From positions 24,591,079-24,655,078 of the forward strand of contig CM049307.1 in assembly GCA_026874595.1 (NCBI GenBank): a stretch of 64,000 bases of DNA, written 5' to 3'. Under the pieces are notes generated by a model. That model did no database searches and had not been told where the DNA came from. It worked only from the letters and a program-made list of their open reading frames with translations. Made by a program: the position numbers and the translations under genes. The DNA is from Sipunculus nudus. Its lineage: Eukaryota > Annelida > Sipuncula > Golfingiida > Sipunculidae. Below, piece by piece: positions 1 to 64,000 of this stretch (within the stretch, counting starts at the first letter, position 1; each line of letters begins with the position of its first letter).

Positions 1-3000
1 CACACAGTAACAACAATACAATGGGCCCTTTATGGCCACATATCAGGTCAATATCATCCAGCTTTTTACTTAACTGATCAGTATCTAGTTAAATTACAAG
101 TTATTCTACTGGAAAGACACAAAGTTCTGTATATTCAAACAGATGAGACTAAGAAATACTGTAACTTAAAAGAGGACATACTAATAACAGAACAATATTA
201 TATAAATAAAAGACTTTTTAAGAGAATGTCAAGCAGAGTACCACTTACCACACATAACTCCTAATGATATACTAAACAAAGCCATGTAGCCGAAATAAAA
301 TGTTGTCTGGAACAATCCATACATTCTGAAAAACAAGATAAGTCATGTTTTAAATGAAATCAATGGTATCCAGCTGTTCAGTTAAAAAAATCTTATTTAC
401 AACAAGTGAAAAATAAAGGTTAAACATCTGGTGAAAGGAGCTGCACTAGTTTAAGTTTAGTAGTTAAATATCAGCAAGCTAAAAAGTGGCTTGCTGTTAA
501 CTGGATTTAAAAGTTAAAATATCATTTGAAAATGAAATTTTAAAAAATATGTATACCATCAGAAAGAATACTATATTAGGTTTTAAATAATGTATACTTG
601 ATGGGTCTAATATGGATTTAACGCAAGTTTTTGACTGACTTTGGAAATATTGGTTTTTCCAAATGCTACCTTAAATGGCTTTCTGAGTCTTGTGAATGCA
701 CGTATACCTCTGTAAATTTAAGCTTGATTAAATGTATCTTTAATCAGGAGCAGAAAAAATGAACTTGATAAGATTTCCCCCCGCTACAATATATTGTGTG
801 CTTTGACTAGGAGAATATGGGCATTTATACAATGCTCAGTAAAATTAACAGTGATGCTACCAAAAGACTGATAGCCTAAAACATCCCCATGACATAAAAT
901 CATAATACAGAACTAAAACATAATACTAATTCTTATAATTATTTCAAATGATATTCTGGACTAAATGTGTTCAGATGTATTCATGATAATAGTACTTACT
1001 TTGTTTTGAAGAAGAAGTAGTAGAAAGAATACAGATACACATAAGCTGCTGTGGAGCCTGCTGCCAAGAAGCTGGTCCACTGCCTGTAAACAAAACAACA
1101 ATGTACAGGTATTAAACAAAACAAAGTACAGGTAGTAATAACAATTCAAGATTACCACATTTGATGTTCCAGTACAGTACAGTTTATCAGTATCAGTTTA
1201 CCAGTAAATCAAACAAGAAAACTGAAGACTTCATTTAACTGAATATTATTTACAATGTCTATCTTTGATTTAAAGGTAACATAAAATATGTAATCATTTA
1301 TATTATAAATCTTCAGCTTTTGCATTCTTTGAGCATGGATAACATAAACATTATCCAATGTGGCTAAATTAATAATTAACATTGTTCTGAGTCAATAAGG
1401 TGCATTATACACAGAGGTTTCATTTTTAGGTTATTTCCCTTTTGCGAATATATCACAAATTTGAAACGCTTACAAACAAGAAGTCAACCTCAGTTTACAC
1501 TGTGTAACAGTACGTACCATCTGTAGTCCTCGGCGTTGAGCAGGAAATAGGTGCAGACAATGGTGACACACATGGTGACGATGGCCAGGATGATGAAGAC
1601 AAGGAGCATGAAGCCATACACATAGTAGATCTTGTAGGCCCAGAACGATGTGAAAATGAAGTACCTGTAAATGTAAACATACAGTAAACAGCTGTACACA
1701 CAGCAGATCTTGTAGGCCCAGAACAATGTAAAGATAAAGTACCTGTAAAAGTAAACATACAGTAAACAGTAGTACACGTAGTAGATCTTGTAAGCCCAGA
1801 ACTATGGGAAGGTGAAGTACCTGTAAATGTAAACATACAGTAAACAGCTGTACACGTAGAAGATCTTGTAGGACCAGAATGATGTGAAGATGAAGTAGCT
1901 GTAAAAGTAAACATACAGTAAACAGTAGTACACGTAGTAGATCTTGTAGGCCCAGAATGATGTGAAGATGAAGTACCTGTAAATGTAAACATACAGTAAA
2001 CAGCTGTACACACAGTAGATCTTGTAGGCCCAGAACAATGTAAAGATAAAGTACCTGTAAAAGTAAACATACAGTAAACAGTAGTACACATAGTAGATCT
2101 TGTAGGCCCAGAATGATGTGAAGATGAAGTACCTGTAAATGTAAACATACAGTAAACAGCTATACTAGTAGATCTTGTAGGCCCAGAATGATGTGAAGAT
2201 GAAGTCCCTGTAAAAGTAAACATACAGTAAACAGCTGTACACGTAGTAGATCTTGTAGGCCCAGACAGATGTAAAAGTAAGCATACAGTACACACTGAAC
2301 TGGTGACCAGCCCACAAAACACCAACAATCCAAATATAATTAATATTAGATGTCTACCAAACATACCCTCTACCAGGACTATTTTTTTTTTTATAAAGGC
2401 TTCCTTGCATTCAATGAAAGCATTTCATGATTTGGATAGATTTTCAAACTGCATTATATTTTAAAGACAAATACATCTCTATCATACACAAAAGAAACCA
2501 ACAAACATAAAAATTAATAACACTCATTTAACTTCAGTTAATTAATCTTTTTTAATTTTTATCTTCAGAAAAAGCCCAAAAATAATCATATATACCCTGC
2601 TATCATCAAAAAGTCTAACTGAACAGCACTAGAGCTAAATGGTTGAGAACATTTTAGCAGACATAAGCTAGGGTGATTCTGTTTTACAATAACTTGCTCT
2701 GGAAAATTTTTTGCCCCCCCCCCCCCCACCACACACACACACACACATCACTTACATTTCAATGAAGATAGAACCAAAGGGTAGGATTCCTCCCAGGAGA
2801 ATGATGATGCCCGGCTCCATAAACCTAAAATGTTATGTTAATAACATCACAAAACATATCCAGATGTAATAATATTAATACAATCATAAAACAAAGATGT
2901 ATTCTTACAAAAACCCACAATGTTAATACCATCATGAAACATATCAAGATGTTATAAATAGTAGAACTGCTCTGGGATCTCCAACAGAATAAACACATTT

Positions 3001-6000
3001 ATGGGCTGATCCAGGGTTGGTTATCTTCTCTTATTGGCAGACATTACCTCTTGTGCTGTATTTTTAAGGCTAACCACCCTCTCATTCCACCCCCCCCCCC
3101 CTGAAGTTGTGGACCTTTAACAGTTAGTTCACTTTTGAGAATCCCTGAACTTCCCCTCACATGATATATTTTAACAATAGATTTTGATCACTGTGACATG
3201 ATTCAGTACAGTTATATGTAGTTATTCAAGATGGTTTCAGCTGATCACAACTCAAAACTTCATTGAGGTTTCTCATATGAAACAAAAAAAGTGAGGATTC
3301 AACATAATAATATCCAGAATACAAACCATTTTTTCTCAGGTATGGGTCTGGGCACTGCATTGATGCGGCAGGGGTAGTTTGGCTGGCCTGCCAAGTTGCG
3401 TCCAAGGACAGTTCCCACCAAGGTCAAGGGGAGGATCACAAACAGACAAATACATGCCACAGCGATCTACAAAATATATGGAATTAGCTAGACCTATATC
3501 AACATACTATTTCAGATGGTGTACATGCTGCTTGTTTATCAGATTTACTATGAACAAAGTTCTACATATATATTTTCAAGCTTTTCATGAATCATGACAG
3601 GACATTTGGCCTCCCCCGGCAGCATAAAGGTGAACTGCCCTAAAATTGGGCCACTAGATCTTGGGAACAACCATATTTCTTGCAAAAAATTGAAAATAAA
3701 ATCCAAACTGTCCCATTTAAAAGGACGATTGTTTCTTCTTGTGTTCTTTGTTGATTCAAACAAATTTCAAGCCGGTAGATGTTCAGCAAATCAGGCATTT
3801 CCTGTTCTTCTATTCTCCTATGATTTACTTTTTGGAGTATTCATATATTCTATTCCACCTTGACTAATGTTACAGTCTGAATTACATTCTTAAAATTCTC
3901 CGCATTCTGGGGGACTATTTTTAATTCCCCATTTTTGAAGTCACACTGCTTAACAGTATCTACTTTGACTTTGACTGGTGTTACAGTCTGGAGTTAATAT
4001 ATGAACTTGCATTCTATAACCTCCCCTCTCCCCTAAAAAAATACTGTCCTTATTCTATTCCCCTATTTGGGGGGTATATATAAGAATTCCCCTCCACTGT
4101 TGTTACATTTAGTACATCCTTACCATGGTGCCAAATGGAATGGCTCTAGAAGCATGGTAGTAGATGGCGATGAAGTTGATAAAGAATGCTGTACCACAGA
4201 TGCAGGCGGGGAGCAGGAAGGCACTGAATACCATCTGCTTGATCCACATCTTCCCTGTGTAAACAACAGGTGTAAACAGGTAAACATGTGTAAACAGGTA
4301 AACAAAAGGTGTGCACTGGTGAACAACAGGTGTAAACAGTTATACAACCGGTGTAATCAGGTATACAGGTTTAAACAAGTATACAACAGGTGAATTCAGG
4401 TATACAGATGGTGTAATTAAGTATACAACAGGAGTACATAGGTATACAAGAGGTGCAAACAGGTAAAGCTATATAAGACCACATCTTAATCAGATGTGAA
4501 GAAGTAAACAAGTGTAAACAGGTAAACAACAGATGTTAACAAATATACAACAGATGTAAATATGAAAACAACAGATGTAAATATGAATACAACAGGTGTT
4601 TATAGGTGTACAACAAGTGTAACTGGGTATACAACAAGTGTTAAGTAGGTATACAAGAGATTAATACAGGTACACAAACAAGGGACCCATGGGTCATGGC
4701 GCTCAGCTGTTATATATGATAAAAAATATGATTTGGGAAAGAGGCACATGCTTGTTTTGTGTGGTAATAAATATAAGCTTTATTATGAGTTGTTGGTGTT
4801 TAGCTTATGTATGATTTTGATAGTATCTTTGGAGACAGGGAAGAGGATTGATTTCATTTATTTTATTAACAAATGGAGTGCTATTGTCACACAGATTTTG
4901 ACTTGGCCATATAACTTTTAAGCAGCAAATATAATAAAAGAAATTTAATAAATATTGTGCCAATATAATTTTTATTAAAAAAAAATAATAGAGAAAATCA
5001 TATGATTTTTTAAAATAAAATATAACTGAAATGATTATTGAAATAATATTATAGAATATACTCATGAATGCAAATAATGAATACATTTTGAAAGTATCTG
5101 CACTAGTATTCAAATACTTTCATTTTTACCTGAATCCCATTCTTATGCAATAAAATTTTTTAATGCAGTACATATTCATATTCGTATTCAAATAAATTTG
5201 CAAAGCATTCTTACCATGTCTAGTATTTATTCAGTTTTAGCCAAACAATGATGTTGAGAATCCAGAATATACAAAATTCACAAATTTAAATAATGATCAT
5301 AAGTACCTGGTTTTATGGCTTTTATTTATATTAAAAAAAATAAATGTAATATGTTCACTTTAGACTACTTTCACATCAATCTACACGCTAGACACAGTAG
5401 GAATCTAGATTAATATTATCAACTGCATCTTTGTCTATCATTAATTTCCTTCATATGATCCCTAATGATAAGTAATGAATAATATGATTTATTTTTTTAT
5501 CATTAAAATTTCACAGAAAAATACCATAGGTGACTGCATGGTGTTATTTGGAATAACATTGACATTGACATTCTATCCATCCATACAAGATTCTTACATC
5601 ATCAGTAACTGCAAGTTAATTTTCTGTTACTCATCAACTAACAAATTTCTTTTCTATTAATTTTTCTTTAATTTGTTATAAACAAGGGACCCATGGGTCA
5701 CGGCGCTCAGCTGATCGTGATTGGACTATAAATGTTTCTCCACTGTGATACTATATCGAGTCAATAAAGCTTATGAATATCATGGACATGTTGGGCTATT
5801 ATAAAGGAATGTAATGTAATATGTGAGTAAATGATAAATGAAATTACCTGACTGATGGATTAATAGAGTCAAATATAGTGGTTTATTTTTTATTTTTTTA
5901 GGAGGGGTTGAAAATTGTGATATATTTGAGCAAATACGAATGCAATGACAGCAGTAATAAGCAGTAGTAGAATGATGATAAGGCTATTTGTTGAAGGATC

Positions 6001-41879: not shown

Positions 41880-42335
41880 AGGCGTGCGTTCGGTAGTCCT
41901 TAGACACTCCATAGAACAGATGGTGGCGTTCGGTAGTCTCTGTGGCACAGATGGTGGCGTTCGGTAGTCTCTAGGCACATCCTTTGGCACATATGGTGGC
42001 ATTTGGTAGTCTCTAGGCACATCCCATGGTACAGATGTGGCATTTGGGGGGGGGGGGGTTCTTAGGCACACCTAATGGCATAGATGGTCGGCTCGGTAGT
42101 CTCTAGGCACTCTCAATGGTACAGATTGTGGCGTTCTATAGTCCTAAGGGACTCCCCATGGCACAGATGGTGGCGTTCGGTAGTCTCTAGGCACTCCCTA
42201 TGGCACAGATGGTGGTGTTCGGTAGTCTCTAGGCACTCCCCATTGTACAGATGGTGGTGTTCGGTAGTCTCTAGGTACTCCCTATGGTACAACCCGTGGC
42301 GTTCGGTAGTTTCTAGGCAGTCCCTATTGTAATGT
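41880..42335. repeat. 42-bp minisatellite, first array
   Basis: About ten degenerate copies of a 42-bp unit: GGTAGTCTCTAGGCACTCCC then CATGGTACAGATGGTGGCGT then TC. Includes a poly-G insertion near 42047-42058. Confidence 0.93.
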
Positions 42336-42499
42336 ACTAAGGGCCAGTCTAATTCTACAATTCTCACTCTCTGTATTTCATCATGATTATATACATTATG
42401 TAAGTTGCAGGGGTTAAAGTTAATTGGGACTTTGTGTATTCAAATGTCAGAGCTGAGTTGCCAAGCAATTACAGTCATTTTGTAAATACCTGGCAACTC

Positions 42500-43340
42500 A
42501 GCTCTGAAACTGTTCAAGTATCCCGTACACGTCTCATTAATAGACTGAATATGTAAAACCTGGTCTATGGAAGTCTTAACTGACTAGGGTAACAGTTATA
42601 TCTTTTTATATGTATATATGCATGTGTTTAAGAAAAAATTCACATTGTCATGAATGTACTGTACCTATAGTATACGATAGTATATGTCTTGCCATATATT
42701 AACCTAGTAAAGACGATCAGAAATGAGCATCTGGTATGGTATTGGCACAGAACAGAATTATTACAGTGTTACACTGGCATACCTATTAAAGACGGATCAG
42801 AAATGAGCATTTGATGTGGTATTAGGATATTCTTTTTCAAAGTTTTGTCAGTATGAACCTGTCAGTTCAGTGCTATTGTGTAGTAAAGTGTTACACTGTT
42901 ATATATTACCTGGTGAGGACGGATCAGAAATGAGTATCTGGTATGGTATTTTTTTTGGTAAGATTCTCTAAATGTCAACCTGCCTGCTTGGTGGCACAAA
43001 ACAGAGATTTAAGTGTATCACTGAAATACCTGTTGAAGACGGATCAGAAATGAGCGTCTAGTATGGTATTAGGCAATTTTGTTTCTAAGTTTTGTCAGTC
43101 TGAACTGGCCTGATCAGTGATATATTACAGAATAAGGGAAGAGTTACAATGTCACTTGTTTACCTAATAAGGACAGATCAGAAATGAGCGTCAGGTATGG
43201 TATTTGGCAGTTTTTTTGCATGTTTTATTTTGTCTGTTAAGTGTTATGATGATAGGAAACTGTTCAAGTATCCTGTACACGTCTTATTAATAGACTGAAT
43301 ATGTAAAACCTGGTCTATGGGAGTCGTAAATGACTAGGGT
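42500..43340. repeat. Spacer between the arrays: flanking duplicates and a degenerate ~80-134-bp repeat
   Basis: The block GAAACTGTTCAAGTATCC...GTAAAACCTGGTCTATGG occurs at both edges (42505 and 43255). Inside, GGATCAGAAATGAGC-like motifs recur near 42715, 42795, 42922, 43042 and 43176. Confidence 0.8.
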
Positions 43341-45960
43341 ACAGATGGGTGTGTTCGGTAGTCTCTAGGCACTCCCTATGGATCATAAGGTGGCTTTCGT
43401 AGTCTCTAGGCACTCTCTTTGGTGCATATTGTGGCGTTAGGTAGTCTTTAGGCACTCCCCATGGTACAGATGGTGGCGTCCGTTAGTCTCCAGGCACTCC
43501 CCATGGTACAGATGGTGGCGTCCGTTAGTCTCTAGGCACTCCCCATGGTACAGATGGTGGCATCCGTTAGTCTCTAGGCACTCCCCATGGTACAGATGCT
43601 GGCGTTCGGTAGGCTTTAGGCACTCCCCATGGTACAGATGGTGGTGTTCCGTAGTCTCTAGGGACTCCGTATGGTTATATGGTGGCGTTCAGTACTCCCT
43701 AATTCCCTATAGGCACATTCCATGGTACAGATGGTGGAGTTCTGTAGACCTCTGGCACTCCCCATGGCACAGATGGTGGCGTTCGGTAGTCTCTAGCCAC
43801 TCCCCATGGTACAGATGCTGGCGTTCGGTAGTCTTTAGGCACACCCCATGGTACAGATGGTGGCGTTCGGTTGTCTTTAGGCACTCCCCATGGTGCAGAT
43901 GGTGGTGTTCCGTAGTCTCTAGCCACTCCCCATGGTACAGATTGTGGCGTTCGGTAGTCTTTAGGCACACCCCATGGTACAGATGGTGGCGTTCGGTAGT
44001 CTTTAGGCACTCCCCATGGTGCAGATGGTGGTGTTCCGTAGTCTCTAGGCACTCCCCATGGTGCAGATGGGTGTGTTCGGTAGTCTCTAGGCACTCCCTA
44101 TGGATCATAAGTTGGCGTTCTGTACTCCCTAATTCCCTATAGGAACTCCCCATGGTACAGATGCTGGCGTTCGGTAGTCCCTAATTCCCTATAGGCACAT
44201 TCCATGGTTCAGATGGTGGAGTTCTGTAGACCTTTGGCGCTCCCCATGGCACAGATTGTGGCGTTCGGTAGTCTCTAGCCACTCCCCATGGTACAGATGC
44301 TGGCGTTCGGTAGTCTTTAGTCACACCCCATGGTACAGATGGTGGCGTTCGGTAGTCTTTAGTCACACCCCATGGTACAGATGGTGGCGTTCGGTAGTCT
44401 TTAGGCACTCCCCATGGTACAGATGCTGGCGTTCGATAGTACCTAATTCCCTATAGGCACATTCCATGGTTCAGATGGTGGAGTTCTGTAAACCTCTGGC
44501 ACTCCCCATGGCACAGATGGTGGTGTTTGGTAGTCTCTATAGGCACTCTCCATGAAACTGATGATACCGTTCTGTAGTCCTAAGGCACTCCCCATGGCAC
44601 ATATGGTGGTTCGGTAATCCCTAGGCACTCCCAATGGTACAGATGGGGGCGTTTGGTAGTCTCTAGGCACTCTCAATGGTACAGATTGTGGCGTTCTATA
44701 GTCCTAAGGGACTCCCCATGGCACAGATGGTGGCGTTCGGTAGTCTCTAGGCACTCCCTATGGCACAGATGGTGGCGTTCGGTAGTCACAGGCACTCCCC
44801 ATGGTACAGATGGTGGTGTTCGGTAGTCTATTGGTATTCCCCATGGCACATATGGTGGTTAAGTAATCCCTAGGCACTCCCATTGGTACAGATGGTGGAG
44901 CTCGGTAGTCTCTAGGCACTCCCCATGGTACAGATGGTGGCGTTCGGTAGTCTCTGGGCATTCCCCATAGCACATATGGTGGTTTTGTAATCCCTAGGCA
45001 CTCCGAACGGTACAGATGGTGGCGCTCGGTAGTCTCTAGGTACTCTCCATGGTACATATGGTGGTGTTCGGTAGTCTCTAGACACTCCCCATGGTACATA
45101 TGGTGGTGTTTGGTAATCTCTAGGCACTCTCCATGGTACAGCTTGTGGTGTTCCGTAGTCTCTAGGCACTCCCTATGGATCATATGGCGGCGTTCGGTAG
45201 CCTCTGGGCATTCCCCATGGCACATATGGTGGTTCGGTATTCCCTAGGCACTCCCAATGGTACAGATTGTGGCGCTCGGTAGTCTCTAGGTACTCCCCAT
45301 GGTACAGATGGTGGTGTTCGGTAGTCTCTGGGCATTCCCCATGGCACATATAGTGGTTCAGTAATCCCTAGGCACTCTCAATGGTACAGATTTTGGCGCT
45401 CATTAGTCTCCAGGTACTCTCCATGGTTCAGATTGTGGCGCTCGATAGTCTCTAGGTACTCTCCATGGTTCAGATGGTGGTCTTTGGTAGTCTCTAGGCA
45501 CTCTCTTTGGGTCATATGATGGCGTTTGGTAGTCTCTAAGCTCTCCCAATGGTACAGATTGTGGTTTTCGGTAGTCCCTATAGGCACATTCCATGGTACA
45601 GATGGTGGCGTTCGGTAGTCCCTATAGGCACATTCCATGGTACAGATGGTGGCGTTCGGTAGTCTTTAGGCACTCTCCATGGCACAGATTGTGATATTTT
45701 GGGGTTCTTAGGCACTCCTAATGGCACAGATGGTGGCGTTCGGTAGTCCCTATAGGCACATTCCATGGCAAAGATGGTGGCGCTCAGTAGTCTCTAGGCC
45801 GTGTCCATGGCAAGGATGGTGGCGTTCGGTAGTCGCTATAGGCGCTCTCCCTAGCACAGATGGTGGTGTTCGGAAGTTCCTAAAGGCACTCTCTGTTACA
45901 CAGATGGTGGCGTTCGGTATTCTCGAGACACCGTGCATGGTACAGATAGTGGTGTTCTCA
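43340..45960. repeat. 42-bp minisatellite, main array of about 60 units
   Basis: 2.6 kb of the same 42-bp unit with 36-48 bp variants. A longer unit containing CCTAATTCCCTATAGG recurs near 43704, 44126, 44188 and 44446, giving higher-order structure. Since 42 is 14 codons, several frames on both strands stay open, producing 60-155-codon frames of 14-residue repeats such as VPRDYRTPPSVPWG or HHLYHGECLETTER. These have no start context, splice signals or domain and are read as repeat by-products. Confidence 0.93.
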
Positions 45961-46610: not shown

Positions 46611-46727
46611 ATGGCGTCAGCCGGCAGAAGTTTTGCAAGAGCTTTCACTACCTCGCGCAAGGCACACGGCACTGTCTATAATGTAGCGGTTATTGGGGCT
46701 GGCGTCGTTGGCACAGGGGTTGCACAG
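46611..46727 (+). CDS. HADH: HADH copy 1 exon 1 (residues 1-39)
   Basis: Targeting presequence and GxGxxG loop ([13 protein letters not shown]). 117 nt, donor GTGAGT. Confidence 0.95.
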
Positions 46728-47936
46728 GTGAGTTTGGCATCTTGTCACACCTCAGTGTGGCTTCCTGATTTTTTTCTGCTTGCTGGATGTACGATGCTTC
46801 AAAGAGTCTAGGTTGGTTCCTTCTTACTCTCTTTGATTGCTACTCCAAACATACATTGACAGATACTTTTAAAGGCGCAAGAACCAGACCATTCACCAGG
46901 AATACTTACTTCGTATAAGACACATTTTTCATTAAGAAAACATAACTTCACATAACATAACGAATAAAGACTTTCACATGGTGAAAGACATATAAGCAAA
47001 TATCCATTTTTCTGTTATTCTGAGTCAAAAATAATATTTGTTAATAAAAGTAAAAACTTGGCTGTATATGGAAACCAGACATGGGGAGATGATTGATTAT
47101 AAAATCAATATTTTGTGTAGATAGCAGCACAGGCGGGTCACGATGTGGCGTTGGTTGATTTGACGGACGGGGCCCTGCAGAGGAGTAGAGACAATATCAT
47201 CAGGTCTTTGGACAGAATCATCAAGCAGGAATTTAAGGATGGTCAACAGGTTGATTTCAATAAGAATAATGCCCGAATATTTCACTTGGTCGAGTGGTCA
47301 AGCTTTGATATCTTACACCTTAGCACCCAGGCGAATGGGAGATTTGTTGGTCCGTGATGGTTTTGCTGGGGAAAATTGTAATAGGTCAAAAGGAACTAAT
47401 AGAGTGAGAAAATACACATATTATTGCAAATAACAATGTACCTATAAAGTTTGCTTCCTTGTTCAAATTTATGGATAACTATCAGGGGCGTCAATGCAGA
47501 ATATTTTACTTATTTTTAAGCAATGGTCAATTTTACCCCCCCCCCCTGATATTCAGAGAAAAATATTAAAAAAAAAAATTTTCTGAGTTTACTATGAAAT
47601 ATTATATATCTAAACAAACCTGGTTTAGAATTAACAAATACTGGAAACATAACATTATTATTTTTTTATCTTATACTTAATTGTAATATATTTGAAATGT
47701 GTCACACAAAAAAAAATGAAAGGTGTAGTACATACATATGTCCAAACATTGTTCACCCTCCCTCGCCTGCGAGTGCCCCCCCCCCCCCCCCGCCGCTTAT
47801 AGATAAATTGACGCCACTGATTACTACGGCTGTTTTAAAGATGACAATCGATTTCATCACTTGCTGATTAAAGACCTGACGTTGAATGGAGGCAGTAATT
47901 CAGCCTTAATGCATTAAGATAACATTTCACCTATAA

Positions 47937-48002
<66 letters not shown>

Positions 48003-50592
48003 CGCAGGGCAAAGACAGGTTCCGGTCGGATGTACTTGGCCGGATATCTCTGACGACAGACGCAAAGCAGGCCGTGTCTGCCGTGGACCTGGTAATCGAA
48101 GCTGTACAGGAAGACCTTGAACGCAAGATAAAGGTGTTTAAAGAACTCGACCTGATCGCTCCAAAGTGAGTAGAATTAATAAACAGAAGGTGCTGTCATT
48201 TCTACGAGCAATGTGTCTATGAAGAATATTTGATATTTATTAAATTATATTGGAGACAACAGTGATTTCAGTAAGGCCAGGATAAGGTACGTTTGTGGCA
48301 GTGACATGCACTCAAAGCATTTTAATAAGGCTGTAGGCCTAACTATGCGCATACACCGCATAGGTCAAAGTTTGTGGTCAGAACTGTATTTTGTTACCCC
48401 CATAATTTTTGCGCATAGTATAATATACATAGTATCTAATATAATGAAACGCCGCCCGAAGGTTGAATTACTTTGGCCCGTGTTTCGGTCAAATTAAACT
48501 TCCACATCTCCCACAAACTGACATTATTTCAAGTTATTTCAAGTTATGAATATATGTCTGGAATTGTACCATATATACTCCTAAAATATTTGCCTTAATT
48601 ATCCTTTGGGTAAAATTGATTTTATCTTTCCTTGTAGTTTTTCTCAATAAAGTTAAATATACATCGCTTTAAGGGCTTTCGGATATCGTTTAAGTCAATG
48701 TACCACAGATAGTTGGGCCCTTTCACATAATACTGACGCCGTCGTAATACTTAAACGTCGGTTTTCTACACCCCGGGGATCACATATCCTCAGACGTTCC
48801 AGAATTGTTTATTTCGGACAGTGAATCCATTCTGTAAGCATTGTACATGCGACTAACGGAGGCATGTAGAGCATTCGACCAGTGGATCTGGTTCTGAATA
48901 AATTGAGCAACATCTAAATTTAAGTCGGAATGGATTCAGGTCTGTTACAATGGCGTCCAGATATGATTGTTCTATATGCCTCTCATCGAGACCTACCACC
49001 GTCTCTTCATAGGTAAAACCCTATATAAAGTACAATTCTATCAGCTAAACCTATATATAAGCGATTTTAATGCCAGTTGCATAGCCTTGGCGGACAAAAT
49101 GGACTTCATATTTCGTGCACGAAATATAACCCGTGCACACGACTGATTACTGCATGCGCATGAGATAAATATTTTTTGCTCATATCGTCAATTGTCGTGT
49201 TGCAGGGGCAGGTGGTTCAACTGATCTAGAACCAAAGTCCGTAACCGGTGACCTCCTCGAGTTCAGGCGTTGTAATTTATTTAACATATTTTAGAAGTAA
49301 ACTAGAAACCAAAGTCCTTAACCGGTGACGTAATCGAGGTAAAGCGTAATTTATTTAACATATTTTAGAAGTAAACAAAATATCTACATTCTGATGAATG
49401 CAGTCCTCCGCCATTCACTTATTCGGCCCATATGCCCAGGTTCATCCATGCATGAGTGACCGTAAATATGTGACTATATCTTGATGACATTCCTTGATCC
49501 GGACCATGCGCCACATCCTCACGTAAATATAGTCGTTCCGTCAATGGCTCATTCCCGCACTGCTCTAAAAATTTCACGAGGTTCCGTACATGACTGCATG
49601 AGTTATGTTGTGCACAAACATACAAACACAAGACCGAGGATGAACGCATTACCACCTGTCGGAGGGAATTAAACATGAAACGATTTGACAACAATTAGTT
49701 GCACAATTAATTAATTACATGCTTAATTTCTACAGGTCAGCAGTATTTGTCACCAACACCTCGTCATATTCCATTAGAGAATTAGCGAAAGCCACTCAGA
49801 GGGCAGACCGCTTCGGGGCCCTACACTTCTTCAACCCAGTCACGGTACTGAAACTTGTGGAGGTGAGTTTGTAATTCTATCATTAAATGGAAGTGTGTAG
49901 GTGTATACGCTTGCAATTGTAACCTTCTCAATAATTGCTTCCCGTCGGAATAAAAGTCTTTGGAAAAATCATAATACAATTTTAGGAAAAACGTGGTTCG
50001 TAACACTGTTATGTGCAGAATGGGACTCACAAGAGTACGACTCTGCTGGTTAGGGTTTGTTGGCTTCAAACTCTGCAGCCCACAATGCAGCGGGGCTTCT
50101 ACATACACAGCGTAGGTATGATTGTAGTGTAGAGAGTAATGTAGTCCGTTCAAGTACGTTTGCTAAAATGTTTCATATCAAATTAAATGAACTTGCTCGT
50201 TTTGTGGTAAGGACTTCACGGAATAAGTAATATTTTGAAAGCATGCGCATGTGAACTCTAAACTTGTGTTTCCTTGAAATGTTACAATGTTACAAATTTT
50301 GATTTAAAAGTTTGACAGTTGGGACAAGTGTTGTCCCGGCCATCCCAACAGGTCGAGGTTTGTTTTGAGTAGAAACGACCTCTAGTGGTAGAGTGGCGGT
50401 GCGTTAAGCCGCGTTCACACCTATCCGTTTTTTTCCTTCCGCACCCGCACCCGCACCCGCTTCCGTCATCCGTCGTCAGCCATCCGTTCTCGCTGTTCAC
50501 ACCTATCCCCGCTTTTTCCGTCCGCACCCGCACTCATCACATTTGTTTCATATAAAATACACTATACACTATTATCTTTCACATATATTCAT

Positions 50593-50649
<57 letters not shown>

Positions 50650-53600
50650 CAAATTTACTTTATACAATAGGCTATATTTTATTTTTCGAGGGCTTACTAG
50701 TAAATTTGTATAATATATTCATCGACTTATCAGTCTTAATTCCAAATTACCCCGTCCCCGCTCCTTTGGTGATTTATATGATTCTATTTATAACATTGCT
50801 TTAATTATATCAATTAATAATTAAAGCTTTCCCGAGCGGGATTGTGAGGCACGCGCAAGTTCCAAATTTTCATAGTGAAAATAAACCGCTTTTGTCATTT
50901 TCTATCAAGGGGAAGACACAAGCACATTCCAGAATATCCCCTATTATATGACGTCATAATATGGATTCCCGTCCGCATGCACCCGATGTCCGCTTCCGTC
51001 GTGAATCGGTCCCAGGCCGATTTGTGCGGACGGCGTGACGGGTGCGGGTGCGGAAGCGGATAGGTGTGAATGCCCTATGTAATTTTAACTAACTCGAATT
51101 TGACGGATGACAGATGATGGAAGCGGGTGCGGAAGGAAAAAACGGATAGGTGTGAACGCCCCTTTAGTCTAAGCATACAGAATGATGACTTCGGGTTAAC
51201 AAAAAGTTACAGTACATTTCACGACTCCATACAGGCTCTGAAACGCCTACACTGAAATGCTTGCTGGGAATAGAAAAATGGTTGTCAATCTTTACTCTGT
51301 TGGTGGCCTTTTTACTTCAGGTGATTCGCAGTCCTGAGACATGCGACGCGGCATACGCCATGATGCTTGAGTTCAGTCAGAGTTTAGGCAAAACAACTCT
51401 GCTGTGTAAGGTAAGCCAACTGTTAACAAGAGTATAATGTCCATCAAAAAGCATGTTCTTCTGAGTGCTACACACGTTCATGTATTAGGAATATATACTA
51501 TCAAATTCAATATTGCTTCCGCCAGGAGGTTATGCGTTCATCTTTGTTCGTGTGTGTGTTTGTGTTTTTTTTTTGTTCACAACATAACTCACGCACATCA
51601 TGAACGGAATCTCATGAAATTTTCAGAGCATTTCGGGAATGGGCCAGCGAAGAATCGATCCAGATTCAGGACCGTCGTCAAGGGATATTCACAACTCTAC
51701 AGTCACTTATGCATGAATGAACCTTGGAATTTAGTCCGAATAAGTGAATGCAAACACTTTTTTGGGAGCATCCCAAGTCCAGAACAGAGAATCCCCCCCC
51801 TGTACACACACACACACACAATGGCGGATGCTTTCATTCCTTAAAATGCACATTTCTAGTTATATCTGGTTTGACCAGCATGCAGGAGCTTTAGTACGTA
51901 GCTTAATGGGTATTTGAAAGCAAAACAAAACAAGGAAATCATTTGAATTATTTGAAGGTTATGGGCGAAAGTACGGCATGGACTAACACCTGCATTGCAT
52001 GTTCAAATTAACCCAGCTTCCGTTTTTCTCGGCGTTGTCAGACATCTTTTGAATCTACTAACACAATGCATTGTTCCAACCACATGCTTTTCACTCCTCA
52101 GTAAAAAGATTTATGAAAATAATAGCCCATGTGATGTATGAACACAAAGTACGGCTCTAACATCGTACAATTTTTCTGTGGCATAAGGCTTTACGAAACA
52201 GTTAGTTTGACGGGTATAGTTTTAGTTTTTGGTGTATTCACTTCTAAGGATATCATAAGATTTACATTTTAATTAGTAAAGTGGAGAAAGGCACATATTT
52301 GAATGCGCAAGACTAAATGGTAAATTAAATTTTGTGAATAATTAGGAAGATCTTCCATACATTTCTAACACCTGGAACGTGTAAAGACCTAAAGACGAGA
52401 AGTGAATTTCAATTCATTTCCATGGATACACAGAATTCTGGAATGAACAATAATATCATTTTTACTTTTTGTTCAAATGTCTATGAAAGTCTTTTACTGA
52501 AGTTAATTATGTATTAATGTTTTACAATCATATTTACAATCAACCACACAGATATATGGAAGGCATTTATGGTCAAGACTCTTATAAGAGGATGAAAAAA
52601 GACAAGACAAAATCTTTATTAATTGACACTATAAAACAACATTCGCTACATCCAATATTAAAATAGGCAACGCATCTAAATTTTAAGAAACAGCATTTTT
52701 AATGATATGAATTTATTCTTTATTACAAGGACACGCCAGGGTTTATCGTGAATCGACTATTAGTTCCCTACTTAATGGAGGCAGTGCGCATGCTCGAAAG
52801 AGGTAATTAAGCTTTTTTTTTTATATTGGTTTCGCTCTATAACAATATATAAAATAACCGAATGAATAATTGTTAATACTTTAGAACGTTTCATTCAGTC
52901 ATGCAAACATCGGAACTCCGTGTAAGGTAGAAAATTATTCAAATCTTCAAAGTAGAAACTCCTGAAGAAGATGCTAAGAAAAAAATTATTTCCTTCTTTT
53001 CGAGTGAATTTAAATTTGTTAGGTTAAAATGTGAACAGTTGTCAAAATGCCAAAGATGACAACAATATTGGTAACATTTCAACACCTACAGGCGATGCAA
53101 GAGCACGTGATATTGATACGGCCATGAAGTTGGGAGCCGGCTATCCGATGGGTCCGATTCAGCTGTTGGATTTTGTCGGGCTGGACGTTTTCAAGTCTGT
53201 AATAGATGGTTAGTGGACGCTTTGAAGAATTAGAGAGTACTAAGAGAGCACATGCCTCCACCAAATCCAAAATAAATTATGATAAAACTCGAAAAGTGGA
53301 ACATATACATTGTTCATGAACTGAACATAATAGATCTTTCAGTGTTTTATAACTATCGGAACAAAAGATTTTCACCAACTGATCACACAGCCTTACTTCG
53401 AAATTTCAGTTGCTGCTGGTTAATAAAGGTGATATTAAATGTAAAAATATACGTTATAAACGGATGCATCTAAACCCTATTAAAGTAGCAATTTAAAGCA
53501 TGCATTTTCTAATATAGTTGAACATGGTCCAAACATGTGCTGCAGGATTGCTATAGGAAGGACAAAAAATCACAACTATTTAAGACACCGTGAAAGAAAA

Positions 53601-53784
53601 TATAAAAAAGGACAATACATCATATTGAATCTTACCATTGAATCCTGCATCTCTGATTCCTACAGGCTGGCACAAATTATATCCAAATGAACCGTTATTC
53701 AAACCTAGCCCACTACTGGAAAGACTGGTGTCGGAAGGAAACATAGGCGTCAAAGTGGGAAAAGGATTCTACACTTACAAGTGA
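46611..53784 (+). CDS. HADH: Mitochondrial 3-hydroxyacyl-CoA dehydrogenase, complete (309 aa, 8 exons)
   Basis: Oxidises L-3-hydroxyacyl-CoA to 3-ketoacyl-CoA with NAD+, the third step of mitochondrial fatty-acid beta-oxidation. Eight exons join in phase to 309 residues (the human protein is about 314). Residues 1-20 are Arg/Ser-rich without acids, a matrix-targeting presequence. The Rossmann motif GAGVVG is at 29-34, and Asp52 (LVDLTD) is at the ribose-binding position. Catalytic-site residues by family alignment are Ser144 (NTSS), His165 (LHFFNP), Glu177 (KLVEV) and Asn215 (GFIVNR). The C-terminal dimer domain has [15 protein letters not shown] and ends GFYTYK-stop. The ATG at 46611 is chosen because the targeting peptide starts there; the open frame upstream has no ATG. 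Introns 1-7 are all GT-AG. A paralogue follows in the same orientation 3.7 kb downstream. Confidence 0.97.
47121..47249 (+). CDS. HADH: HADH copy 1 exon 2 (residues 40-82)
   Basis: [20 protein letters not shown], containing the ribose-binding Asp52. 129 nt, acceptor TGTGTAG, donor GTTGAT, a weak donor. Confidence 0.94.
47483..47819. mobile_element. 337-bp hAT-like MITE in HADH intron 2
   Basis: Terminal inverted repeats CAGGGGCGTCAAT and ATTGACGCCACTG (one mismatch), flanked by ATAACTAT (47475-47482) and ATTACTAC (47820-47827), a decayed 8-bp target duplication (6 of 8). Contains two poly-C runs. No transposase. Confidence 0.8.
47938..47999. repeat. (TA)n microsatellite at the exon 3 acceptor
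   Basis: About 60 bp of TA directly upstream of GTATGTCGCAG, the exon 3 acceptor. Confidence 0.95.
48008..48165 (+). CDS. HADH: HADH copy 1 exon 3 (residues 83-134)
   Basis: Encodes [20 protein letters not shown] and [20 protein letters not shown]. 158 nt, leaves 2 nt. The acceptor GTCGCAG comes straight after a 60-bp TA microsatellite instead of a pyrimidine tract. Confidence 0.94.
49225..49376. repeat. Imperfect ~76-bp tandem duplication
   Basis: Two copies of a unit with ACCAAAGTCC(G/T)TAACCGGTGAC and TATTTTAGAAGTAAAC, in HADH copy 1 intron 3. Confidence 0.85.
49383..49665 (-). repeat. Dispersed repeat family C, copy 3
   Basis: Reverse orientation: TCTACATTCTGATGAATGCA, CCATATGCCCAGGTTCATCC and GAGTTATGTTGTGCACAAAC in inverse order relative to 51518. 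Confidence 0.8.
49736..49862 (+). CDS. HADH: HADH copy 1 exon 4 (residues 135-177)
   Basis: Catalytic exon: [20 protein letters not shown] (His165) and KLVE (Glu177). 127 nt, donor GTGAGT. Confidence 0.95.
50050..50105 (-). repeat. Short repeat family F, copy 1
   Basis: The reverse complement GAAGCCCCGCTGCATTGTGG...TTTGAAGCCAACAAACC...AACCAG matches 56605-56670 in order. Confidence 0.6.
50405..51172. mobile_element. ~770-bp long-terminal-inverted-repeat element in HADH intron 4
   Basis: The left arm (50412-50530) and right arm (about 51030-51165) are long inverted repeats built around GTTCACACCTATCCGTTTTT and CCTTCCGCACCCGC. TTA lies next to each outer edge. TIR sequence and a TTA-type duplication resemble PIF/Harbinger MITEs, but the class is inferred. 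Contains a (TA)n at 50599-50645. Confidence 0.75.
51321..51410 (+). CDS. HADH: HADH copy 1 exon 5 (residues 178-207)
   Basis: [20 protein letters not shown] and on to LLCK. 90 nt, phase 0 at both ends, acceptor ACTTCAG, donor GTAAGC. Confidence 0.95.
51518..51860 (+). repeat. Dispersed repeat family C, copy 4
   Basis: Runs from TTCCGCCAGGAGGTTATGCG through ACAACATAACTCACGCACAT, GGGAATGGGCCAG and ATGGCGGATGCTTTCATTCC to CTAGTT. Overlaps the 135-codon frame at 51437-51844, which is not a gene. Confidence 0.85.
51861..52729. other. Rest of HADH copy 1 intron 5
   Basis: AT-rich intron sequence with no further feature recognised. Confidence 0.5.
52730..52802 (+). CDS. HADH: HADH copy 1 exon 6 (residues 208-231)
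   Basis: [20 protein letters not shown], with Asn215 of the active site. 73 nt, donor GTAATT. Confidence 0.94.
53092..53208 (+). CDS. HADH: HADH copy 1 exon 7 (residues 232-270)
   Basis: C-terminal domain, [20 protein letters not shown] and [12 protein letters not shown]. 117 nt, acceptor CTACAG, donor GTTAGT. Confidence 0.95.
53666..53784 (+). CDS. HADH: HADH copy 1 exon 8 (residues 271-309 and stop)
   Basis: [20 protein letters not shown] through VGKGFYTYK and TGA at 53782-53784. A possible donor (GATG/GTAAGA) about 20 nt past the stop hints at a spliced 3' UTR. Confidence 0.95.
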
Positions 53785-54620
53785 GGCAGTAAACTGAGAT
53801 GGTAAGAAAATAACTAAAAATACATATATCTTAATGATTGGACTTCTAAACACTAAACAGTCTACCGACCACAGCCTGCATGAGTAAAACTGAACATAGG
53901 CGCGAGGAAACTTATCTCTGTCAATGGAGCAAAGTTATTCTGAACATATGAGAAACCATCGAATTGAATCAACCCTACATGCACTAGGCATAACGTGTTA
54001 TAGATCTCACGGTAAATGAATATAGCGAAGTAATGAAGTCGTCACAGGGGCAGTCATTTTAGAAAAACAGCACCGACGACTCATAAATTCATTATCATAT
54101 ATTTATATAAATATATGTATAATAGTAATAAGGTGATAGATTATGCAATATCTGTGCATTTCTCAAGAGACATCCGTCTGCTTATTATTCCTTTCTTTTC
54201 AGAGTCACTGGATTGTTCAAGCCATCATGTCCAGCATTTGCAAATGCCCTTGTTGTTATATAACGTGACGATGAGGATCTTGAAAAAAGATATATTTTCA
54301 AGAGTGAATAGGAGAGAGTCCATTGGTGAAGAAACTGGACGTTGGTGCAGACGGATTCTACTGCTCCGGATACTGCCAAAGCGTCTACTTTAAAACACGC
54401 TCCTTACGCAGCGGTTATACGCTACATTTAAGATCTCCTTTGTTCAAACCGCTGCTTCGTATAGCAAGGTTCTCCAGGTCCCATAAGCAGGGCCGGCACA
54501 GGGCAAAGAACTGTTATCAGACAAATGAGGGCGTGTTACAGCATCGTGCATCCAGCTCCAAGTTTTAAACCCCACTCTCGTTGGTCGGATTCTTGGCCCT
54601 GTGCCAGAACCGCGGTGTAA
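53785..54620. other. Region after HADH copy 1; possible spliced 3' UTR
   Basis: A donor-like GATG/GTAAGA at about 53803 and an acceptor-like TTCTTTTCAG at about 54202 could bound a 3' UTR intron. An imperfect 18-bp inverted repeat (54493-54510 with 54590-54607) lies beyond. I see no clear poly(A) signal before 55279. Confidence 0.3.
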
Positions 54621-54715
54621 TCTGACTGCGTTAGGAATGTATACTGTAAAATGACAAACGCTCAGCAGAGATCGGCTTTAATCTCTTCACGACAGCCATT
54701 TGTGTTCCGATTATT

Positions 54716-55043
54716 TGATCTACATATCTGTTCAGTGACCAATACACCAGGGAATTCCAGTATAAAATCTTAAATAATAATTTACCAGTCAATGCCAAGC
54801 TATTTATATGGAAACTCATAGGAAGTGACAGATGTGATGATTTTTTTAAGTAAGGAAACATTCCACCTATTTTGTCAATGTACGATTACAAGGAATTTAT
54901 ATCTTAAAATATGTGATTTGCTGAAACAAGTTGAAATATATATGCCAGAATTCAAATCAAATGCTATAATATTTGAAGTATTGCCTGTTACTGACAGCAA
55001 TATTATGGTAAACACTATTATTATACTGTATAAACTCATTATA

Positions 55044-55077
<34 letters not shown>

Positions 55078-55086
55078 CACACACAC

Positions 55087-55124
<38 letters not shown>

Positions 55125-55265
55125 GAAAAGAATGCAAAAGTGAAACAGGTATTTTCACTAATATTAAGTCTCTATTTATCTCTTTTCAAAAAGAGGATTA
55201 TATCATTGCTGAAAAGAAAGGGACAATAGGATTTCATTTGAAAAAGTGGAATCAGTTAATGTCTC
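54716..55265 (+). pseudogene. LINE ORF2 3'-end remnant (zinc-binding RT C-terminus)
   Basis: The plus frame from 54735 reads EFQYKILNNNLPVNAKLFIW and KLIGSDRCDDFF. After a one-base frameshift around 54845-54852 it continues KETFHLFCQCTITRNLYLKI. This is the W-K-x-x...C-x-x-C...H-x-F-x-x-C pattern of the reverse-transcriptase zinc-binding region (zf-RVT) at the end of LINE ORF2. A further piece (EKKGTIGFHLKKWNQLMSQI) lies past a TA/GA microsatellite at 55041-55121. Frameshifted and microsatellite-interrupted, so inactive. Confidence 0.65.
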
Positions 55266-56025
55266 AGATAAGGTAATAAGAATAAAGAAACAAAGAAGAT
55301 TGAAATTTTATTTTTCCCTACTATAAACAATCTCTGATTTTTATAAATATCAATGAAATGTTTATATGCATTGAAATATTACCTGTCATGATTGACATTT
55401 GTGTATGTCTATACTTATCCTGTTTAATGTTGATATGAGGAAATTCAAATCAGATAGAAGCTGATATATGAGATGTCTACATATATTTCCTTATGCTATT
55501 GTGTATTTGAGGTTGTACGTGATTGTTGTTTGTAATTCAATGTAAAAGTGTTGTTATTGTTGTGATATGTATAGATTAAAAAAGAATTGTTAAAATTAAT
55601 ATACATATCTTAGTTTGAGAACGATAATTTGACGAACAAGGTTGACCCAATAATTTGTGTATATGTCACTGAGATGAAAAGTCTGGCGAACAGAGAACTA
55701 CTTGCTGAAATTCTAATGGCAGTAAACTGTATTTAATTGAGGCACATAAATGAAATCTTTATCAAATCGTTTTATCACGTTTTAATGTTCATATGATTAC
55801 GAGATGTGTTGACTTGCTGACACGTGTTATTGAAGTTAATTCAAGGGAAAGCGTGGCCTTTGTAATGCCGCACAAACAAAAATAATTGTTCTACGGACCC
55901 AGTCAACAACAACAAAAATATGATGGCAAGATTTTTTTTACCGGTCAAGATACGATACGTGGAATTTTGCCAGGTTGTCAATAGAAAAAAGAAAAAAATT
56001 GCTTCAAATTTTGAAAAGAGTGAAG
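55266..56025. other. Intergenic, nothing recognised
   Basis: AT-rich sequence. AATAAA-like motifs at 55279 and a variant near 55575 could serve an upstream transcript, but none can be assigned. Confidence 0.4.
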
Positions 56026-56426
56026 TAGGGCTGGGTATTGGTCAACCCATTTAGGTACAATACGTATTGCGATATACTTAAGGCGTTACCCGATACATAT
56101 TTACGGTACGCTTTATTTTCTTTTGTGTATTATTTCTGATTAAAACACCGAGAACCGTATACACAAACCTCATCAAGTCGATTATATCCGACAATACGTG
56201 ATCTTGTTTGACTCTGAAAAGTTCAATATAATAAAATAAAAGCAGTATAAGCTTCATAGATCACTCATGTTATAGTTTGGATTAGGGTTGTATGACTTCT
56301 ATCTATATTCCTTAGCAGTTTTTGTGTTTCATCGGTACGACGATACAGCAAGCACAGCTTATCGGTAACCGTATCGATGTTGCGTATCGATATGTATCGA
56401 TATATCTGTATATTGATACAGCCCTA
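56026..56426 (+). mobile_element. ~400-bp short terminal-repeat element, family E copy 2
   Basis: The left end TAGGGCTGGGTATTGG and right end ATTGATACAGCCCTA are inverted repeats at their outermost 7-8 bp. The interior shares ordered blocks (TACGACGATACAGCA, GGTAACCGTATCGATG) with 22150-22516. The class is not determined. Confidence 0.7.
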
Positions 56427-56589
56427 GTTGGATGGGTCAACACAAAATTGAGTCCCTAAGATTTCTGTGAAAGAGTAAAGGGTAAAGAGTAACTGGGCAA
56501 GAGCACAAACTAGAATCATGCATAATCAAATGCCTCGTCTTCATTTGCACAAAAAATCCCTCTCCCCTCTTTACTTCATTTATACCTAC

Positions 56590-56680
56590 GCAGCTGGTGT
56601 ATTTAGAAGCCTCGGTGCATTGTTGGTGACATATTTTGAAGCCCACAAACCATAACCAGTGGAGTCGCACTCGTGTGAGT
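56590..56680 (+). repeat. Short repeat family F, copy 2
   Basis: GAAGCCTCGGTGCATTGTTG...TTTGAAGCCCACAAACCATA matches 50050-50105 in inverse orientation. Confidence 0.6.
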
Positions 56681-57424
56681 CCGATTTGGGCAGTTTGACT
56701 GGTTTGTTTTGTTTATGGAGTGTATTTAGAAATGAACCGAATCTAGTAACATATGGCGTTTTTATCATTATTCTGAGCGTTGCTCTTTGTGTTCGGCCAT
56801 CCAGACCAAATCACTTATGGCCTATAAGTATGTGTAATGTATTTGATCCATGTTCAGGTTTAAAGGTATTATTCCGACAAGTTCCCACCTCAAAAGCAGT
56901 TGATAAGACATTTGATACAGGTAGTGTGTTAGACCAACAGGCCTTTAGTTGGATAATTTTGCGCATACAGAATCGTCTAGCAGAGCCTTGTGGGCCTTGG
57001 GCCAATTGCAGTTTAATTCACCAGCAAAGGCGTATTTTGTACTTGGTGGGTGGTAACGAAACAATCTACATATGAATATAATTATAATCTGAGTATTTAA
57101 CGTGTCCCAAGGTTTATCAGGAAAGAAGGGGCAATTTAGCAAATGGGGCTCATGATTATCTGTTGCCATATCTTAAACTTGATTACACAGCCAAGATAAG
57201 ATTACAACTGAATGCACTTACAACTCTCGAGTTATCTATCTGACACGACAGTCGCCGCATCCAAGCACCGTATCCATGGTGTTTTTTTACACTGGTTGCT
57301 CAAGATAACTTCGGCACACTGCTCGAATATACGAAAATGTTCATACTGACTTTATCAATTTTTTTTTATCATCGGACCCAACGTGTACACAGACGAGTAA
57401 CAGCAAATGTTCTCCATCGCTTCT

Positions 57425-57492
57425 GTGTTCCCGCCATATTGACACGACTGGCGTCTGGACACGCTCTATCGTGACGTCACATACTTGTAGGC
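57425..57492 (+). promoter_or_regulatory. Promoter-proximal region of HADH copy 2 with CRE
   Basis: A perfect CRE (TGACGTCA, 57472-57479) lies 13 bp before the start codon. The sequence CCCGCCATATTG at about 57430 contains the reverse complement of a YY1-type core. The 5' UTR must overlap this, so the CRE may lie at or just downstream of the transcription start. Confidence 0.4.
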
Positions 57493-57609
57493 ATGGCGTT
57501 CTCGTGCAGAGCTATAGCCAGGGCTTACTCCACGTCATCAAAGACACACAGGGCTGTCAGTCATGTTGCCATCGTGGGTTCTGGTCTTATGGGCAGAGGG
57601 TTAGCACAG
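57493..57609 (+). CDS. HADH: HADH copy 2 exon 1 (residues 1-39)
   Basis: Presequence and AIVGSGLMGRGLAQ. 117 nt, donor GTGAGA. Confidence 0.93.
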
Positions 57610-63600: not shown

Positions 63601-64000
63601 TTTTTCTCTTTTTTGAGACCTTTAAAGATGTGGTTATCTGTCAACAGGGTACAAATCACAACAACTGGACCTAGAATCTTCATTCTTGTAATGCAAGGAG
63701 GCCCATGAAAAGTGCCTGTGGAAACTTGAAATAAGGTCTCTGTTACCCATAGCCCTTCAAGCTATAGGACTCCGAAGTATCCCTCAGAATAATGGACAAT
63801 TTGATACAAAAGCTGAAGTATCTGAACAACTTATGCGGAGACCACAATGATTCTTTGCATGGATATTGACCATTAAGTGTTTTTATTAGTTTCTGCAGAC
63901 TGGTGGAGCCACCTGTATTTTTGTATACGCCAAAACGATGTTTTGCGGATACTATGTTTTTGACCGGGTTCCTCCGCCACCGCCGCGTTCGTTTCCAGAG
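57493..64000 (+). CDS. HADH: Second 3-hydroxyacyl-CoA dehydrogenase paralogue, exons 1-5, runs off the window
   Basis: Five exons give residues 1-207, which align without gaps with copy 1; exon lengths (117, 129, 158, 127, 90) and phases are identical. It has a presequence like copy 1 (MAFSCRAIARAYSTSSKTHR) and a more canonical nucleotide loop, GSGLMG at 29-34. But the ribose-binding Asp52 is His, giving TLAHRSEATL, and Asn142 before the catalytic Ser144 is Val (VTVTSSLSI). His165 and Glu177 are kept. Exons 6-8 (dimer domain) are not seen in 61768-64000, which is filled by a repeat; they are presumably beyond the edge. Frames are intact, with no stops or frameshifts, so a functional gene with changed cofactor use is more likely than a pseudogene. 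Alternative: an NAD-binding protein with reduced activity. Confidence 0.9.
57857..57985 (+). CDS. HADH: HADH copy 2 exon 2 (residues 40-82)
   Basis: VAAQTGHHVTLAHRSEATLH, with His52-Arg53-Ser54 in place of Asp52. 129 nt, donor GTTCGT. Confidence 0.92.
58190..58360 (-). repeat. Dispersed repeat family C, copy 5 (partial) with poly-G
   Basis: AAACTAGAAATCTGCATTCT and GTATTCGGCCCATATTC in inverse order relative to the plus copies; a run of 16 G at 58238-58253. Confidence 0.7.
58904..59061 (+). CDS. HADH: HADH copy 2 exon 3 (residues 83-134)
   Basis: HGEKFLNDALGRITHTMDIQ and DIVLEAVKEDIDLKKRLLEE. 158 nt, acceptor ATACCAG, donor GTAAGT. Confidence 0.93.
59062..60343. other. HADH copy 2 intron 3
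   Basis: 1.3-kb intron with no repeat or gene that I recognise. Confidence 0.5.
60344..60470 (+). CDS. HADH: HADH copy 2 exon 4 (residues 135-177)
   Basis: [25 protein letters not shown] and KLVE. 127 nt, acceptor ATTTCAG at 60343, donor GTAGGT. The start is chosen over the AG four bases later because it preserves phase and the 127-nt length of copy 1. Confidence 0.92.
60890..61436 (+). repeat. Dispersed repeat family C, copy 6
   Basis: Starts CCACCGCCAGGAGGGCATGC, then ACAACATAACTCAAGCAATT, ATCCCATGAAATTTCCATTG and GAATGAACCTGGGAATATGA, ending ATGGCGAAAGCTTGCATTCT. It has an extra internal stretch and a CA microsatellite at about 61393-61418. Confidence 0.75.
61678..61767 (+). CDS. HADH: HADH copy 2 exon 5 (residues 178-207)
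   Basis: VVRIPETSDETHQVMMEFTK through VQCK. 90 nt, acceptor ACTGTAG, donor GTGAGG. Confidence 0.92.
61972..64000 (-). mobile_element. Pearl/HINE-like element with at least six ~340-bp core repeats (open at the window edge)
   Basis: Reading the minus strand: tandem core repeats, then a (ACGG/ACAG)n tract (62016-62052 on the plus strand as CCGT units), then a 31-bp terminal hairpin at 61972-62002 (TAGCTCAG...CTGAGCTA). Core repeats are marked by TGGTGGCGCC-like motifs at 62201, 62527, 62864, 63215, 63561 and 63901, so spacings are 326-351 bp. Each repeat has GGACCTAGAATCTTCATTCT and ATATTGATCATGAGATGTTC blocks. This is the order reported for bivalve Pearl elements. It starts 205 bp into intron 5 of HADH copy 2. 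Confidence 0.75.

Follow-up and report, generated by a model that had tools for sequence, protein, structure and literature searches.

Does a coding exon whose splice acceptor has been copied many times into the preceding intron still give rise to a single protein? This question is raised by the gene of an EMP70-family protein, TM9SF3, in the annelid Sipunculus nudus, where the border between intron 11 and exon 12 is repeated in tandem. We analysed the window, the whole stretch of 64,000 nucleotides of contig CM049307.1 (positions 24,591,079 to 24,655,078), which has a GC content of 37% and a CpG observed/expected ratio of 0.56.

The TM9SF3 gene and the copied junction

The TM9SF3 gene lies on the minus strand within 1-30 kb of the window, and 13 of its acceptors were mapped. 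Fourteen exon-sized pieces, ordered from 29779 down to 247, match a human TM9SF3 query sequence. Three of the pieces are weak when taken alone, namely the first piece (E 3.1), exon 11 (E 0.55) and exon 13 (E 0.22), and the query gave two more weak matches elsewhere in the window. All four exons submitted to Pfam matched PF02990 (EMP70), with E-values ranging from 7e-17 to 2e-4, the match of exon 2 falling below the curated cut-off. The assignment of the gene to TM9SF3 in the original prediction is thus borne out by the Pfam EMP70 match of exon 12 and by the exon matches to the human sequence. The two exons that flank intron 11 are as follows, with a slash marking the splice point here and below.

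1518..1664, minus strand: exon 12 of TM9SF3, 147 nt, phase 2 at both ends; acceptor CAG/GTACTT before 1664; Pfam EMP70 E 7.3e-17
2756..2824, minus strand: exon 11 of TM9SF3, with the donor GAAAT/GTAAGT

It had been proposed that the intron 11/exon 12 junction is copied about eight times in a 78-bp unit. TRF indeed reports an array at 1617-2272 with a period of 78, 8.4 copies and a score of 1018. Cut at the splice point, the unit consists of 30 nt of intron end and 48 nt of exon start, corresponding to 26 codons in frame. The full copies number eight, of which seven lie directly upstream of exon 12 and one, at 1664, is authentic; the exon-like starts (1664, 1742, 1820, 1898, 1976, 2054, 2132 and 2207), each following ..TTTACAG, lie exactly where they had been placed. 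Neighboring copies are spaced by 78 bp, with the sole exception of the 75 bp between 2132 and 2207, and a ninth copy at about 2238-2293 is eroded and has lost its AG. The units of the array are listed below.

1617..1694, minus strand: unit 0, type A; the authentic junction itself, made of the last 30 nt of intron 11 and the opening 48 nt of exon 12
1695..1772, minus strand: unit 1, type B; the decoy acceptor, before 1742, is in frame and its use would add 26 residues
1773..1850, minus strand: unit 2, type A; decoy acceptor before 1820, in-frame TAG
1851..1928, minus strand: unit 3, type B; decoy acceptor before 1898, with AG/CT in place of AG/GT
1929..2006, minus strand: unit 4, type A; decoy acceptor before 1976, peptide of the exon-like part identical to the authentic one
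2007..2084, minus strand: unit 5, type B; decoy acceptor before 2054, one mismatch in 78 to unit 1
2085..2162, minus strand: unit 6, type A; decoy acceptor before 2132, peptide of the exon-like part identical to the authentic one
2163..2237, minus strand: unit 7, 75 bp, mixed A/B; decoy acceptor before 2207, with its own in-frame TAG
2238..2293, minus strand: eroded ninth unit, having lost the segment that held the AG and the first codons

Two types of copy, A (cagctg..acatttacag) and B (ctactg..acttttacag), follow each other in alternation, forming a 156-bp higher-order pattern in which only the 2207 copy is mixed. The AG of the acceptor is present in all eight full copies, and AG/GT in six of them, the exceptions being 1898 (AG/CT) and 2207 (AG/GG). 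Repeated 20-mers start at 407 positions of 1518-2824, compared to none in each of 20 dinucleotide shuffles, which shows that the array is not a product of chance. Searches of Rfam at gathering scores, for tRNAs, and of the array against phage sequences gave no match.

A 26-mer from an interspersed repeat of the window matched neither a collection of genome contigs nor one of viral contigs, and a second repeat had no match among the viral contigs. Exon 12 matched one locus in the genome contigs and none in the viral contigs. The matching locus (L001, 4400-5700) belongs to a bacterial MAG record from a pond, assigned to Verrucomicrobiaceae, and carries a eukaryote-like EMP70/TM9SF stretch, which is probably contamination. 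The corresponding protein stretch is intronless in this locus, and the residues spanning the splice point are contiguous and conserved, so a 26-residue insert at this point would be unusual. The peptide of exons 11-13 has no relative in the PDB at E 0.001, and the affected helix is therefore not placeable on a structure.

Decoy acceptors, reading frames and codon changes

The copies had been predicted to bear acceptor-like sites of their own, and on a small matrix built from the 12 other acceptors of TM9SF3 these sites are as good as the authentic one. The authentic acceptor scores 7.1, as do 1820, 1976 and 2132, followed by 1898 (7.9), 2207 (8.3), and 1742 and 2054 (9.9 each); four of the seven decoys are thus higher than the authentic site and three are equal to it. 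The gap between 7.1 and 9.9 comes from a single A/T change at position -8. Leave-one-out scores of the 13 real TM9SF3 acceptors span 2.8-12.5, a range that encloses that of the decoys (7.1-9.9), and by the same procedure the authentic exon 12 acceptor is ordinary rather than weak, with five of the 12 others scoring lower. As the decoys score no lower than the authentic site, their misuse is possible, and the retention of AG in all seven gives no sign of selection to silence them. Selection that keeps the decoy acceptors was considered as well and rejected, the variable columns numbering 4 of 30 in the intron part and 14 of 48 in the exon part (Fisher p 0.17, the last columns of unit 2207 being omitted).

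Reading frames were followed by joining exon 11 to each acceptor and continuing to exon 13. The frame is open only from 1664 and 1742. As foreseen in the original prediction, splicing at 1742 stays in frame and adds 26 residues, and the copy at 1820 contains a TAG. From the other six decoys, the frame ends at a stop whose distance to the exon 12/13 junction is 287 nt for 1820-2132 and 650 nt for 2207. Under the 50-nt rule for decay targets, stops at least 287 nt upstream of this junction make the resulting transcripts expected targets of decay.

Exon 12 would be 147 nt long from 1664, compared to 225-690 nt from the decoys, and from this proximity argument we infer that 1664 is favored. In tests of duplicated acceptors by Lang and Spritz in 1983 and by Reed and Maniatis in 1986, the upstream copy reportedly can win, so that a preference for 1664 as the nearest acceptor is conjectural. 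A literature search on splice-site proximity gave no match.

The exon-like codons were compared with three references, namely unit 4, the authentic copy and the majority sequence, because two reference columns are tied or nearly so. Relative to unit 4, all seven decoys together show 6 synonymous and 12 non-synonymous codon changes, and the authentic copy 3 and 0; the last two codons of unit 2207, which are shifted by the 3-nt loss and one of which is its stop, were omitted from the count. Whichever of the three references is used, the 16 codons of the decoys show 10 distinct changes to another amino acid or to a stop, evidence against tight constraint, and the authentic copy carries no non-synonymous change. 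The authentic 16-codon peptide is identical to that of human TM9SF3. The distinct decoy changes, synonymous to non-synonymous, number 4:10 (unit 4), 6:10 (authentic copy) and 5:10 (majority). Given a random non-synonymous share of 0.83, the binomial p values are 0.27, 0.04 and 0.09, respectively, and all three tests lean to fewer non-synonymous changes than random. The silent share is thus equal to or above the random one, depending on the reference, and the decoy codons may be under weak constraint or may descend recently from a constrained exon.

Relation to known mirages and competing explanations

Minisatellite-like tandem duplications across an intron-exon border have been described as “mirages” in lancelets, where published reports document them in Adh3 and the globin genes BflGb6 and BflGb9 (PMC3087553), in addition to PGBD5, with TnC also cited (PMC3902484). 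According to these reports, Adh3 data and globin RT-PCR suggest normal splicing despite the mirage (PMC3087553), and normal splicing of PGBD5 is by inference only (PMC3902484). The repeat signals could serve as cryptic splice sites, and it has been suggested that new introns may arise from mirages (PMC3087553). A lancelet gene model includes a repeat-derived exon of PGBD5, a prediction that the authors did not adopt because transcript support was lacking (PMC3902484). Two haplotypes of BflGb6 hold six and three units (PMC3087553).

Similar to the lancelet mirages, the TM9SF3 array has a unit that spans the intron-exon border and repeats that bear splice signals. It differs in the gene concerned, in its 78-bp unit of whole codons in frame and in its A/B alternation; the lancelet units on record measure 10-72 bp (Adh3), 150-160 bp (BflGb6), 157 bp (BflGb9), and 60 and 108 bp (PGBD5). 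With border-spanning tandem repeats in eight copies and splice signals kept, the array has the structure by which a mirage is defined, and it is a new example of an already described kind of duplication. Repeated splice sites are also shared with human IFI6 (6-16), where the title of a 1995 paper, as listed in PMC2572611, refers to a minisatellite with multiple splice donor sites. By contrast, the TM9SF3 array supplies acceptors rather than donors. The IFI6 unit is said to be 12 bp long. Literature searches on splice acceptor minisatellites and on minisatellite exonization returned no titles of evident relevance, and a search on TM9SF3 splice variants returned no title on this array. Searches on mirages and on lancelet intron-exon boundaries pointed to the two lancelet reports.

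We consider it probable that the array is a mirage, built up as a 78-bp block joining the 3′ end of intron 11 to the first 48 nt of exon 12 was duplicated in tandem again and again, and that it is near-neutral and leaves with the intron. Its growth and reshuffling would have proceeded by unequal exchange or replication slippage, as suggested by the A/B alternation, the near-identity of units 1 and 5, and the mixed unit at the far end. The spliceosome would mostly pair the donor of exon 12 with the nearest acceptor to yield the 147-nt exon, and the array, removed along with intron 11, would be nearly neutral. Leakage to 1742 would produce a protein longer by 26 residues, and leakage to the other six decoys would produce early-stop transcripts. 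Altogether, the array is probably spliced around, and on the reading frames and the lancelet precedent it is unlikely to affect the TM9SF3 protein, some use of 1742 being possible. A polymorphism in array length is plausible by analogy with BflGb6. In other respects the array is unremarkable, probably a near-neutral side effect of tandem duplication. Nevertheless, eight near-identical acceptors in front of one exon amount to a natural experiment in spliceosomal choice among equal sites, which is sharpened by the decoys scoring no lower than the true site and by a single decoy keeping the frame open.

Alternatively, the array might be a working generator of isoforms, in which 1742 is used regularly to add 26 residues, the other decoys act as a valve of unproductive splicing, and the length of the array tunes the ratio. 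The open frame from 1742 and its acceptor score of 9.9 against the authentic 7.1 are consistent with this, as is the somewhat lower number of non-synonymous changes than random in the decoys when the authentic copy is the reference (p 0.04). However, unit 1 carries an S>L and two Y>C replacements, and the insert is hydrophobic (19-residue Kyte-Doolittle means of about 0.45-1.8) and would enter at a conserved point, where it could upset the packing or the count of helices. We therefore regard a regular use of this kind as unlikely. The protein isoform role put forward in the original prediction is not supported, in view of the early stops from six of the seven decoys, the 10 distinct decoy codon changes and the reported normal splicing of the Adh3 and globin relatives.

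The copy number might also have been inflated or collapsed in the assembly. In the lancelet draft, one mirage was assembled aberrantly (PMC3087553), and copy numbers differ between two lancelet assemblies (PMC3902484). In the present array, the closest pairs, units 1 and 5 (one mismatch in 78) and units 4 and 6 (two mismatches), could have been over-counted. Several other units, however, are distinct by private differences, with five in unit 2 and three in unit 3 relative to unit 4, in addition to the 75-bp unit and the eroded unit, and an assembly artefact is very unlikely to account for the copy number.

A last alternative is that CAG/GTACTT serves as acceptor and donor at once, so that a mis-spliced unit could be excised later, either as an intron of 78 nt or in a round of recursive splicing, to restore the normal mRNA. 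AG/GT occurs at six of the eight junctions, and each unit would make an intron of 78 nt; moreover, a model of intron gain by AGGT duplication is described in PMC4974935. The cases given there, including potato RdRp, resemble the TM9SF3 array in a tandem duplication with AGGT, or of an acceptor and part of an exon, but in those cases the duplicate became a new intron. Donor strength was scored from base frequencies, and on this scale the junction reaches 1.2, above one of the 14 TM9SF3 donors (exon 10, -0.5) and below the other 13. Nine real donors score 1.5 to 7.6, and the remaining five, taken as the best or frame-fitting GT, score 5.8, 5.3, 4.5, 2.7 and -0.5 (exon 10). Once joined to exon 11, the junction becomes AAT/GTACTT and drops to -2.5. 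With so weak a donor, the 78-bp unit is not favored as a small intron that functions, and removal of mis-spliced units in this way is very unlikely.

Arrays at other TM9SF3 acceptors and repeats elsewhere in the window

Five minisatellite-like arrays are present in TM9SF3 at a TRF score of at least 50 and a period of at least 15, with overlapping rows merged (the GA, ACGG and poly-G rows lie below the period limit). Three of the five touch an acceptor, i.e. come within 6 bases of it. Besides the 78-bp array, a 21-bp array at 4259-4677 (CTGTTTACACCTGTTGTATAC on the minus strand) has about 20 copies and ends 4 nt from the start of exon 9 (4254); it contains 4 AG in 419 nt, compared to about 12 expected from base composition. 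The other, at 1086-1138, consists of 2.2 copies of 23 bp and ends 2 nt from the start of exon 13 (1083), at its acceptor. Neither of these two arrays contains exon sequence. Random placement gave p 0.005 for the arrays touching acceptors and 0.016 without the 78-bp array, for a threshold chosen after seeing the list and for acceptors only; a concentration of arrays at TM9SF3 acceptors is thus suggestive. A much bolder reading, which we find improbable as a whole, is that minisatellites at acceptor borders, present at three of the 13 mapped TM9SF3 acceptors, are a recurrent outcome of mutation in this genome, possibly outside lancelets. TM9SF3 would then present an eight-way competition of acceptors, with the insert of 26 residues in a fraction of the mRNAs and with arrays whose length varies among individuals.

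Other repeats were observed further along the window. Two tandem HADH-like (3-hydroxyacyl-CoA dehydrogenase) copies or parts lie at 46611-60473 on the plus strand, as found with a human HADH query. Upstream of the HADH-like gene, a large 42-bp minisatellite at 41886-45957 forms two blocks, the larger with 61.5 copies. A (TA)31 run at 47938-48000 ends about a dozen bases before a likely HADH exon acceptor. In addition, a 337-bp tandem repeat of 5.2 copies occupies 62144-63919, and 16 poly-G/poly-C runs of at least 12 bases, the longest of 30, are found across the whole window.
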